Of a stretch of 51,012 nt of DNA, positions 946 through 4,733 are shown piece after piece. The translations under genes were made by a program, and so were the position numbers. Each line of letters opens with the position of its first letter. Positions within the stretch are counted from its first letter, which is position 1. The notes beneath the pieces are model-generated. The model was not told where the DNA came from, did no database searches, and was given only the letters and a program-made list of their open reading frames with translations. Source of the stretch: Cryomorphaceae bacterium (GTDB taxonomy: Bacteria > Bacteroidota > Bacteroidia > Flavobacteriales > Flavobacteriaceae). The DNA lies in the NCBI GenBank assembly GCA_003331875.1, contig QOQA01000008.1, positions 1-51,012 of the forward strand. The letters are read 5' to 3'.

Positions 946-975
946 TTGTAAAATAAATTTATTCTTATACTTTTG
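946..975 (+). promoter_or_regulatory. Bacteroidota-type promoter for the 2TM-DHFR gene
   Basis: TTG at 946-948 and TACTTTTG at 968-975 are separated by 19 bases, an exact fit to the flavobacterial housekeeping consensus TTG-N19-TAnnTTTG. The ATG at 983 is only seven bases after the -7 element, so the transcript would be leaderless or nearly so. The TTG begins just after the stop of the preceding lipoprotein gene, so this promoter separates the two units. Confidence 0.65.
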
Positions 976-982
976 CTATTCA

Positions 983-1867
983 ATGTTTAGCGACAAAACT
1001 TCACATATTGATGATAACACAATAGAGTTATTAGAAAATGCTCAGAATAGAATAAGGCAAAAAAGGAATGTTTATAGACATTTTATATTTTTTCTTTTTA
1101 TTTCAGGATTTATTTTATTTATTAATCTTGTTTTATCTGTTGGTGATAACTTAATGTTTTTCGATTATTCTTGGTCTATTTGGGTTGTATTAATCTGGTC
1201 TTTTATCTTAATGTACCACTTGTTTGATGTCTTTGTATCAAAAAGAATTATATCCAAAAAGTGGGTATCAGTTCAAAAAAGCCATTTAATTAAAGTTCAG
1301 CAAGAAAAGATAAGATCTTTGAAAAAGCATATCGAAAAAAAATCAAAGATTTATGCTGATTCAAATTCAAATAATTTAAATCAAATGATTACTATTATTG
1401 TTGCAGCATCTGAAAATGATATAATTGGAAATAATAATAAACTGATCTGGCATCTAAGTAAAGATTTAATCAGATTTAAAAACTTAACAAAAGGGCATCA
1501 TGTTATCATGGGCAGAAAAACCTTTGAATCTATGCCCAAAGCTTTACCAAATAGAACAAATGTTGTCATCACTAGAAATAAAAATTACACAGCTGAAAAT
1601 ATAACAGTGGTCGATTCTCTTGAACGTGCATTAAAAGTTTGTAAAGATGATCCGCAACCATTTATTATCGGGGGTGGTGAAATTTATAGGATAGGACTGA
1701 AATATGCAAAAAGAATAGAACTTACAAGAGTTTATCACAATTTTGAAGGAGATACAACCTTCCCTCAAATTGATAAAAACTTATGGAAAGAGGTTAAGGA
1801 CATAAAAATGTTTGATATTGAAAATCATAATTATAATTTCAGCTTCATAACATATGATAAAATTTAA
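983..1867 (+). CDS. folA: Membrane-anchored dihydrofolate reductase (2TM domain-DHFR fusion)
   Basis: A 294-residue fusion. Residues 11-115 form a 2TM domain: an amphipathic start, membrane segments near 33-53 and 63-83, and a basic cytoplasmic helix. Residues 135-294 are a complete DHFR of normal length (about 160 residues). It begins M-I-T-I-I-V-A-A-S, carries W-H-L-S-K-D with the catalytic acid at Asp161, then M-G-R-K-T-F near 176-181 and G-G-G-E-I-Y. DHFR reduces dihydrofolate to tetrahydrofolate with NADPH in the cytoplasm. In relatives the 2TM protein and DHFR are usually separate; here the frame is continuous, with an internal Met at 135 (base 1385) that could also start free DHFR. fabD starts four bases after the stop. 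Confidence 0.88.
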   Translation: MFSDKTSHIDDNTIELLENAQNRIRQKRNVYRHFIFFLFISGFILFINLVLSVGDNLMFFDYSWSIWVVLIWSFILMYHLFDVFVSKRIISKKWVSVQKSHLIKVQQEKIRSLKKHIEKKSKIYADSNSNNLNQMITIIVAASENDIIGNNNKLIWHLSKDLIRFKNLTKGHHVIMGRKTFESMPKALPNRTNVVITRNKNYTAENITVVDSLERALKVCKDDPQPFIIGGGEIYRIGLKYAKRIELTRVYHNFEGDTTFPQIDKNLWKEVKDIKMFDIENHNYNFSFITYDKI

Positions 1868-1871
1868 TTGA

Positions 1872-2747
1872 ATGAATGTATTTGTATTCCCCGGACAAGG
1901 ATCACAATTTAGGGGCATGGGTAAGGAACTTTACCAAAATTCAATCACCGCTAAAGAATTATTTGATAAAGCTGATGAAATTCTTGGTTTTTCATTATCA
2001 AATATTATGTTTGAGGGTTCTGATGAAGATTTAAAGCAAACCAAAGTAACTCAACCAGCAATATTTATTCATTCAATAGCAAAGTTGCTAGAATTAAATT
2101 CCAAAATTAAACCAGATTTTGTTGCTGGCCATTCACTAGGTGAATTTTCTGCTCTAGTAGCAAACAAAACAATTAAGTTTGAAGATGGCTTAAAGCTTGT
2201 TTATGCACGTGCAAATGCGATGCAAAAAGCTTGTGAAAATAATCCTGGTCGCATGGCTGCAATTTTAGGTCTAGACGATGAGGTAATTATAAATGAATGT
2301 AAAAAATTTAATAAATATGTAGTAGCTGCTAATTTAAATTGTCCAGGGCAAGTTGTTGTTTCTGGTGAAATTGAAGGAATTTTGGATATTTGTACGTTAT
2401 TTAATAATATGGGTGCCAGGAGGAGTTTACAACTAAATGTCAGTGGGGCTTTTCACTCTAAATTAATGAATGATGCAAAAGATGAGCTTAAAGAATTTAT
2501 TAATACAATTGAATTTAACACACCTGTTTGTCCAATTTTTCAAAATGTGACTGCTAAAGCTGTTACTGATAAAAACGAAATTAAAATAAATTTAATCAAT
2601 CAAATGGTTTCGCCAGTGAGATGGTCTGAATCTATAGTTAGTATGATTAATCTTGGAGCCAGAAAATTCACAGAAATAGGTCCTGGTAAAGTTTTGTGTG
2701 GTTTGATTAGAAAAATCAATAGAGACGTATTTGTAGAAACAAGCTGA
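1872..2747 (+). CDS. fabD: Malonyl-CoA:ACP S-malonyltransferase
   Basis: 291 residues, full length for FabD. It transfers malonyl from CoA to acyl carrier protein to supply chain-extension units for fatty acid synthesis in the cytoplasm. The N-terminal oxyanion motif F-P-G-Q-G-S-Q is at 6-12, the nucleophile elbow G-H-S-L-G-E has Ser88, the general-base region reads G-A-F-H-S near 192-196, and the conserved end motif E-I-G-P-G-K is present. The ATG at 1872 is followed in another frame by ATG at 1876; only the first gives the FabD N-terminus. It is placed directly after the DHFR fusion and probably shares its transcript. Confidence 0.95.
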   Translation: MNVFVFPGQGSQFRGMGKELYQNSITAKELFDKADEILGFSLSNIMFEGSDEDLKQTKVTQPAIFIHSIAKLLELNSKIKPDFVAGHSLGEFSALVANKTIKFEDGLKLVYARANAMQKACENNPGRMAAILGLDDEVIINECKKFNKYVVAANLNCPGQVVVSGEIEGILDICTLFNNMGARRSLQLNVSGAFHSKLMNDAKDELKEFINTIEFNTPVCPIFQNVTAKAVTDKNEIKINLINQMVSPVRWSESIVSMINLGARKFTEIGPGKVLCGLIRKINRDVFVETS

Positions 2748-2818: not shown

Positions 2819-4033
2819 ATGAATATTGCTTATAATATATTGATAGATATTTTTAAAAAGATTTTACTACCAATAGCATCAATTGTCTCTGATCGAATAA
2901 AAAGTTTTATAAAAGTAAGAATTAACTTATTAGAAAAAATTAGTAGTGATGTTGATAAAAACAAAGAATACATTTGGATTCATGCAGCATCACTAGGGGA
3001 ATACGAACTAGCAATTCCGCTTATAAAGGAAATTAAAAAAAAATTTAAAGAGGAAATTATTTTAACGTTCTTTTCGGAGTCAGGATTTAAATTAGATAAA
3101 AGAATAAATGAAATAAGTCATACATATTATCTTCCAATAGATACAAAGAATAATGCTAGAAAATTTATAAAAATAATAAATCCAAAAATTGCAATATTCA
3201 TAAAATCAGAAATTTGGCCAAATTATGTTAAAGAGCTATCGAAAAAAAATATTAATACTTATATAGTAAACTACTCATACAATAAGTTTGTAAGTAAAAT
3301 TTTAAATAATACGATAAGAAAATTTAATAAAATTTATGTACAGGACAAGATTAGTATGAAAAAGTTGGAAAGTTTAGGATTAAATAATATCGAATATTCG
3401 GGAAACTTGAAATTTAATAGGGCTTTATTACAAAAAAAAGAAATTTATAAAAATGACAGGTTACATAAATATTTAAAAGGACATAAATGCTTGGTATGTG
3501 GAAGTACGTGGATAGAAGATGAAGAGATTATAATTAAGTACATAAAAAGTAATGAAATAAAGGATTTTAAGTACATAATAGCCCCACACATAGTAAGTAA
3601 AGAAAATATAGAAAGAATAAAGAATAAATTTGAAAAAAAGGTAAATTTATTAAGTGATAATAAATATAATATACATTATAATGTACTAATAGTAGACTCT
3701 ATTGGTGTTCTAAAGTATATTTATAAATTTGCATACGTATCTTATGTAGGGGGTGGATTTAAAATAAAAGGGTTACATAATATATTAGAATCGTGTATTT
3801 ATGGAAATCCAATAATAATTGGAAAAAATTATAAATTTTTTAATGAAGCAGAAGACTTAATAGGCTTGAAAGGTGGGTTCAGTATCAAGAACTCAACAGA
3901 ATTTAAAGAAATATTAAATGAACTTTTGTCAAATGAAAAGAAAAGAAAAGAAATAAAAACAATTAACAGTAAATTTATTAATGATAACCTTGTATCAATA
4001 AATCAAATTATTAACTCAATTAAAAATGAATAA
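2819..4033 (+). CDS. waaA: 3-deoxy-D-manno-octulosonic acid (Kdo) transferase
   Basis: A 404-residue GT30 glycosyltransferase that adds Kdo to lipid A at the inner membrane. The signature W-I-H-A-A-S-L-G-E near 54-62 holds the conserved catalytic glutamate, and the C-terminal nucleotide-sugar half carries Y-V-G-G-G-F, G-L-H-N-I-L-E and the G-N-P-I-I-I-G loop. Relative to neighbours the gene is unusually rich in Ile, Lys and Asn with many ATA codons, suggesting relaxed composition or different ancestry. It overlaps the next gene by eight bases in an ATGAATAA arrangement, which suggests translational coupling. Family assignment is firm. Confidence 0.92.
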   Translation: MNIAYNILIDIFKKILLPIASIVSDRIKSFIKVRINLLEKISSDVDKNKEYIWIHAASLGEYELAIPLIKEIKKKFKEEIILTFFSESGFKLDKRINEISHTYYLPIDTKNNARKFIKIINPKIAIFIKSEIWPNYVKELSKKNINTYIVNYSYNKFVSKILNNTIRKFNKIYVQDKISMKKLESLGLNNIEYSGNLKFNRALLQKKEIYKNDRLHKYLKGHKCLVCGSTWIEDEEIIIKYIKSNEIKDFKYIIAPHIVSKENIERIKNKFEKKVNLLSDNKYNIHYNVLIVDSIGVLKYIYKFAYVSYVGGGFKIKGLHNILESCIYGNPIIIGKNYKFFNEAEDLIGLKGGFSIKNSTEFKEILNELLSNEKKRKEIKTINSKFINDNLVSINQIINSIKNE

Positions 4034-4733
4034 AACAACTCTATTTATATTAATAATAGTCTCACAATTTTTAAACTCTCAATCGATTGATGGTGCTTGG
4101 GAAAAATATGAAACAAATTTAGCAGGAAATAATGAAAGGTACGTCGCAATTTTTTCTAATGGTTTCAACACCTCTACTGTATATAATAATATTGATGGAG
4201 AATTTATTTCAACTAATGGTGGATCCTGGTACCTTGATGGCAATTTATTAACTCAAAAAATTGAATTTGATTCTAAAAATTCTGAAAGGGTTGGGTTGAC
4301 TACAACTTTTGAGATTGAGCTAAAAGATAATAAAATGACAATTATAAATACTGGAAAAACTTGGATTAAAATTGATGATGGAAGACCCGGCGAGCTGAAT
4401 GGGGCGTGGCTCATGTCAGGTAGATTTAGGGATGGTGTTAAAAGTATGAGAAATATTGACAGACCCAGAAAAACAATGAAAATCCTATCTGGTAGCAGAT
4501 TTCAATGGATAGCATATAATACTACAACCAAACAATTTATGGGAACTGGGGGTGGAACATATAAAACAATTGATGGTAAATATACTGAACAAATTGAATT
4601 CTTCTCAAGGGATAACTCGAGGGTTGGCGCTAAACTAGGCTTTGAATATAAATTAGATGACGGTGAGTGGAATCATATGGGTTTTAGTAGTAAAGGAGAT
4701 CCTTTGCATGAGATTTGGGTTCAAAGAGAATGA
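4026..4733 (+). CDS. Secreted protein with two tandem lipocalin-like repeats
   Basis: 235 residues with a signal peptide ending in L-N-S-Q (about residue 19). The mature protein is an internal duplication: each half opens with G-A-W and later has the parallel segments Q-K-I-E-F-D-S-K-N-S-E-R-V-G and E-Q-I-E-F-F-S-R-D-N-S-R-V-G, about 110 residues apart. This resembles small Bacteroidota 'membrane or secreted proteins' with lipocalin-like DUF domains; the exact family cannot be fixed by eye. It overlaps waaA by eight bases, which ties its expression to lipid A glycosylation, but no enzymatic motif is visible. The function is unknown. Confidence 0.72.
   Translation: MNKTTLFILIIVSQFLNSQSIDGAWEKYETNLAGNNERYVAIFSNGFNTSTVYNNIDGEFISTNGGSWYLDGNLLTQKIEFDSKNSERVGLTTTFEIELKDNKMTIINTGKTWIKIDDGRPGELNGAWLMSGRFRDGVKSMRNIDRPRKTMKILSGSRFQWIAYNTTTKQFMGTGGGTYKTIDGKYTEQIEFFSRDNSRVGAKLGFEYKLDDGEWNHMGFSSKGDPLHEIWVQRE

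Follow-up and report, generated by a model that had tools for sequence, protein, structure and literature searches.

Dihydrofolate reductase (DHFR) is an essential enzyme and a textbook example of a soluble cytosolic one, and its type I form is usually a soluble single-domain protein. The stretch of DNA that we analyzed (51,012 nucleotides, hereafter the window, from a draft genome that is 75% complete) contains a gene in which a DHFR is preceded, in the same frame, by a two-helix membrane (2TM) domain. The locus raises the question of whether the joined gene is real and, if so, what an anchored DHFR would mean for these marine flavobacteria. The features considered are as follows (L, G and C numbers are our handles for loci, genomes and contigs, respectively).

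983..1867, + strand: 2TM-DHFR fusion gene, 294 aa, with an ATG start and one uninterrupted frame without internal stops
946..975, + strand: putative Bacteroidota-type promoter (TTG-N19-TAnnTTTG), last base 7 nt before the ATG
1037..1276, + strand: 2TM domain PF13239, residues 19-98 (profile match, hydropathy, charge, and modelled helices 11-49 and 64-89)
1277..1384, + strand: basic linker, residues 99-134, comprising most of the modelled helix 92-127 and then a short low-confidence stretch (124-130)
1385..1861, + strand: complete type I DHFR domain, residues 135-293 (Pfam, structure alignment, invariant columns, Foldseek)
1385..1387, + strand: internal ATG (Met135), proposed earlier as a second start; not conserved
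1872..2747, + strand: fabD (ACP S-malonyltransferase; TIGR00128, 346.7 bits), the downstream neighbor, given as context only

Pfam recognizes both parts of the protein. PF13239 matches residues 19-98 with E 3.9e-15 and 56.1 bits against a curated cut-off of 24.8, and DHFR_1 (PF00186) matches residues 135-293 with E 1.1e-57 and 194.7 bits, covering model positions 1-159 of 159. The DHFR part aligns along its full length with 8uvz, named as the B. subtilis DHFR in the Foldseek matches, and the active-site W-H-L-x-x-D-L stretch is common to both. Asp161 of this motif, which we take to be the catalytic acidic residue of the DHFR active-site W-x-L-x-x-D/E-L motif, is aligned with the Asp of 8uvz and is invariant in sets of both 20 and 34 aligned fusions. 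The best 50 Foldseek matches listed are all DHFRs (TMt 0.86-0.95).

The N-terminal part has the properties of a membrane anchor. By hydropathy, two hydrophobic 19-residue windows begin at residues 35 and 66, and two hydrophobic segments are present in all 34 aligned fused proteins (that of the window plus 33 of the 36 named fused loci). H33, W64, W72, H79, and W94 of the 2TM domain are conserved in the fusions. The positive charge of the flanks exceeds that of the loop in 27 of these 34 proteins, matching a hairpin with both ends inside, while the other 7 fail this simple charge test; from the positive-inside rule, the loop would lie outside and both ends inside. Residues 86-134 contain 13 K+R versus 3 D+E. 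An AF2 model built with 34 fused sequences (mean pLDDT 79.3, pTM 0.54) places two long N-terminal helices at residues 11-49 and 64-89 and a long basic helix at 92-127, followed by the DHFR fold. The joint at 124-130 is of low confidence (pLDDT <50), and with a pTM of 0.54 the relative placement of the domains in the model is unreliable. An earlier note on this DNA, made from its sequence alone, had claimed a membrane-tethering architecture with a basic coiled linker; the two hydrophobic segments and their basic flanks agree with the predicted tether, and the linker is both helical in the model and basic by charge count. Elsewhere in the window, positions 4026-4733 encode a 235-aa protein between a KDO-transferase-like gene and a tRNA-Leu, with a near-threshold DUF4488 match (26.8 bits, cut-off 27).

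The same note had recognized that a missed stop or frameshift could have created the continuous frame and had suggested comparing related genomes for one frame versus two genes. Among 23 genomes of the window's genus (the window genome included, many of them incomplete), 13 have a full-length match, each in one frame without stops and at 55-100% identity; one (G009) has a fragment at a contig end, and the remaining nine have no match. In the family as a whole, 389 of 397 genomes contain a match, and 148 of the 150 matches listed are uninterrupted across both domains. Adding 12 from a search of 75 genomes, a hand-picked subset of the 397, and one (G032) from the genus search, the uninterrupted fusion frame is present in at least 161 of the 397 sampled family genomes, including isolates and single-contig assemblies. 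The incompleteness of the draft genome that holds the window is the only point in favor of a sequencing or assembly error, and recurrence of the frame in so many independent genomes rules such an artefact out and leaves it a negligible probability. The fusion claimed in the earlier note is therefore genuine, with one frame, both Pfam domains, and repetition across many genomes, and the comparison that it suggested reveals a fusion that is widespread and recurrent, with split pairs also found. Named carriers include Tamlana, Flavivirga, Seonamhaeicola, Kordia algicida, Mesoflavibacter, Winogradskyella, Psychroserpens, two Aquimarina, and an uncultured Formosa, and from these names we take the family to be Flavobacteriaceae. 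The fusion also occurs in genomes of 3-6 Mb, which rules out a peculiarity of small genomes. In other families of the order, 21 of 23 genomes have a match, but none of these starts before query residue 123, so they represent a DHFR without the 2TM part. A phylum sample yielded matches in 189 of 296 genomes; among those listed, none from outside the family covers the two membrane helices, although a few reach back as far as model position 90, in the linker region.

Fused genes are one of three states of this locus. Of 227 classified loci, 116 are fused and 83 are split, and the other 28, four of which belong to members of the order outside the family, carry DHFR alone. The set includes duplicates, and because its loci were picked by search rank or by hand, the counts are not frequencies. 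Removal of duplicates leaves 103 unique fused and 71 unique split loci. In the split genomes, which include Flavobacterium, Myroides, Gramella, Gillisia, Zunongwangia, Lutimonas, and one uncultured Aquimarina, an orthologous 2TM gene is located immediately upstream of the DHFR gene. The two genes overlap by ATGA in 19 of the 71 unique split loci and by TAATG in 2, the DHFR ATG lies 0-30 nt past the 2TM stop in 45, and 5 have other arrangements; in 26 of the 71, both genes are in the same frame. At one split locus (L029), the only usual start near the DHFR domain is a GTG rather than an ATG, 89 nt past the 2TM stop. Many members of the family thus carry either a split pair or DHFR alone, so the tether is dispensable for the enzyme as such.

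Trees of the 174 fused and split sequences require a minimum of 7 (2TM), 8 (DHFR), or 7 (both parts) changes between the fused and split states, compared to a mean of ~55 and a lowest value of 47-50 in 50 label shuffles. When DHFR-alone sequences are included, one group (support 98) contains 91 of the 103 unique fused sequences, those of the window's genus among them, and no split sequence. The other 12 sit among split sequences, as exemplified by two Aquimarina (L179 and L182) and by L064/L065 and L074/L076, each of which was seen in two genomes. The DHFR-alone rows, order-level outgroups included, are scattered in this unrooted tree, some with support of 18-21, because these rows have no 2TM columns. 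Such trees cannot separate fusion from fission, and we claim neither a direction nor a root for the state changes. The state is stable, yet it has changed repeatedly, and this combination of few but recurrent changes suggests a standing relation between the 2TM protein and DHFR.

The fused gene also appears to be the sole source of type I DHFR in its hosts. All 36 fused genomes searched, 27 of them single-contig, contain exactly one PF00186 match, which rules out a second type I DHFR elsewhere in these genomes; six of the 36 are genus genomes that are 75-87% complete. As with the thyA, thyX, and PF13239 searches, the genome set was hand-picked, and the members of the genus included in the searches for further DHFR or 2TM domains are 57-87% complete. 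thyA was detected in 24 of 24 genomes and thyX in none of the same number searched. Since ThyA is present without ThyX, thymidylate synthesis in these cells would produce dihydrofolate, and in the sequence search, which covered type I DHFR (PF00186) as distinct from FolM and type II DHFR, no other enzyme for its recycling than the fused protein was detected. In one genome, thyA is closely followed by a second, incomplete match to thymidylate synthase (G253:C1:2116585-2116851), perhaps a decayed duplicate. Gene neighborhoods were counted at 132 loci with >7.5 kb, a few of them duplicates (128 are distinct), and the families of the thyA and fabD neighbor clusters were checked on one member each. 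thyA is found on the same strand, with a median position upstream, at 86 of the 132 loci (45/54 fused, 28/61 split, and 13/17 alone), and a relative of the window fabD, with a median position downstream, at 73; the corresponding numbers among the 128 distinct loci are 84 and 70. Within the window's genus, thyA is located ~9.5-10.5 kb upstream in 4 of 6 searched genomes, those in which both genes share a contig; the thyA of the window genome lies on contig C13.

The 2TM part appears similarly tied to DHFR. The window genome encodes a single PF13239 domain, that of the fusion, and 28 further genomes were searched. Each of 17 small fused genomes likewise has exactly one PF13239 domain, located in the fusion, and none was found in six of six DHFR-alone genomes (1.8-2.7 Mb), nor in two incomplete genomes of the genus (G001 and G009). 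That the fusion has the only 2TM domain found in the small fused genomes and that the six DHFR-alone genomes have none ties the 2TM part to DHFR. From the same comparison (6/6 DHFR-alone versus 17 fused), genomes that lost the 2TM part beside DHFR seem to have lost every other member of the 2TM family as well. Among the three large fused genomes searched, G036 has three PF13239 domains and the other two have one each. The two additional domains of G036 lie side by side (G036:C1:2390626-2391170) in frames of 453 and 127 aa, the longer of which we presume may be a sensor kinase beside a small 2TM protein. Sequence comparison of 11 pairs chosen out of 48 fused loci, with a few values undefined or saturated, gave dN/dS <0.5 in every defined comparison of the 2TM part, the linker, and the DHFR. 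Linker values were ≤0.25 where defined, and the highest value, 0.49, came from the 2TM part of L002/L003, which has few changes. The 2TM part, linker, and DHFR are all under purifying selection.

Upstream of the gene, the earlier note had described a promoter with a nearly leaderless start. TTG-N19-TAnnTTTG is the Bacteroidota promoter consensus, and it is present in full in L001-L005 with its last base 7 nt before the ATG; L006, L007, L008, and L013 have TAnnTTTG 6 nt before the ATG, and L009-L012 have TAATTTAG, which is one base off TAnnTTTG, at about the same place. This claim is upheld, since nine of the 13 genus loci have the box 6-7 nt upstream of the ATG, and a putative promoter ending 7 nt before the start codon would yield a leaderless or nearly leaderless transcript. 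At any position within 80 nt, the box is found in 17 of 48 fused loci compared to 5.5% expected from mononucleotide shuffles, and outside the genus in 7 of 35, mostly farther from the ATG. The window contains 7 full sites versus 2.28 expected (0/100 shuffles with ≥7), some of which lie inside genes, and the motif by itself is consequently modest evidence, its conserved position within the genus being the stronger part.

Two readings compete with a stable membrane-held enzyme. According to one, the fusion is made but soluble DHFR is released from it, either because translation also starts internally near residue 135 or because a protease cuts the flexible joint, with the 2TM part serving mainly to couple translation. 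The low-confidence joint at 124-130, the apparent translational coupling of the split genes, and the A-rich stretch upstream of Met135 in L001-L004 all accord with this, and 46 of the 103 unique fused proteins do have a start codon of some kind within the junction (an ATG in 27, only GTG or TTG in 19). The junctions of the remaining 57, however, lack all three codons. Position 135 itself is ATG in L001-L004 but TTG in L005, which is 80% identical, and a Met occurs there in just 5 of the 103, which rules out Met135 as a conserved internal start. Furthermore, a pure coupling device would need neither the 2TM sequence nor a linker under purifying selection. We regard release as improbable for the fusions at large; were it to occur, the chain might be cut between its two parts, or translation might begin at a non-canonical codon within it. 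The second, soluble form that the earlier note had envisaged from Met135 is possible in the lineage of the window, but it does not hold as a general feature, given that the Met is not kept and that more than half of the fused proteins lack a usual start in the junction.

The other reading, and the main rival, is that the fusion is neutral: co-translated neighbors lost a stop codon, and a 2TM protein with an unrelated membrane role tolerates a C-terminal DHFR. In that case the enzyme would be anchored all the same, and this reading differs from our preferred explanation in meaning but agrees with it on location. The raw material for such an event is abundant, as the split pairs are adjacent, the same-frame arrangement is found in 26 of 71 unique split loci, and in many of them the stop of the first gene and the start of the second are close together. 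A neutral fusion nevertheless sits poorly with the tree, in which at least seven state changes are few for 174 sequences and the states persist; with selection upon the linker; and with the 2TM distribution, in which the fusion carries the only 2TM domain found in small fused genomes and six DHFR-alone genomes are without any. The states persist and recur and the 2TM part is retained, all of which weakens this reading; in our judgment it is unlikely, though likelier than release.

We therefore return to a membrane-held DHFR: the product of the gene, the sole type I DHFR detected in these cells, is likely an inner-membrane protein carried on a 2TM hairpin and a basic helix. The hairpin would insert into the cytoplasmic membrane with both termini in the cytoplasm, and it would be followed by a basic juxtamembrane helix of ~35 residues at the inner face of the membrane. 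A short flexible joint would then carry an ordinary DHFR with a complete active site on that face, where the anchored enzyme would presumably recycle the dihydrofolate made by ThyA. The single chain would thereby make permanent a pairing that is seen elsewhere as adjacent and sometimes overlapping genes. The cell might thereby gain a local supply of tetrahydrofolate, an enzyme kept close to ThyA or to some partner in the membrane, or a means for the membrane or the 2TM module to regulate DHFR.

The protein remains a variant of FolA (PF00186) and a member of that family, with the full-length domain, the invariant active-site Trp and Asp, and the DHFR fold, but it differs in that a membrane hairpin and a basic helix precede the DHFR domain. 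In the best 60 of 166 matches to solved structures, the best-matching stretch begins at query residue 130 or later, and none of these matches covers the 2TM part. With other PF13239 proteins of Flavobacteriaceae, which are either stand-alone or in frames of ~450 aa that we take to be probable sensor kinases, it shares the two membrane helices, whereas in the fusion the 2TM domain carries a DHFR. 2TM copies elsewhere in the genome match with E of about 1e-9 to 1e-3, while the DHFR-adjacent split copies are far stronger (E about 1e-27 to 3e-13). Protists and plants have a DHFR-thymidylate synthase fusion, and there too a fused partner fixes the place of DHFR in the thymidylate cycle; that partner is the enzyme thymidylate synthase, whereas here it is a membrane anchor and thyA is separate, though often nearby. 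Sequence databases probably hold 2TM-DHFR proteins under the name of either domain. In the openly accessible journal papers searched, we found no description of the 2TM-DHFR architecture, and in PMC11237479, "2TM" denotes other proteins. Both domains are known, whereas those papers yielded no account of a fusion of the two that is the sole DHFR in many species. Given that the same joined gene occurs across the family as the only such enzyme found, the fusion probably represents a genuine, previously undescribed means of keeping DHFR at the membrane.

With more doubt than confidence, we extend this to the family: a large part of it may run its sole DHFR at the inner membrane, with the 2TM protein as a dedicated partner (scaffold or regulator) that has been covalently joined more than once, such that the last step of the thymidylate cycle would be membrane-bound, with DHFR perhaps complexed with ThyA or controlled through the 2TM part. 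The finding also points to a concrete role for the 2TM domain, which has no assigned function. As DHFR is an antifolate target, its predicted anchoring in some species beside relatives with separate genes constitutes a natural experiment on enzyme tethering, and if the 2TM protein binds DHFR in the split species as well, this may matter for antifolate action in these bacteria.
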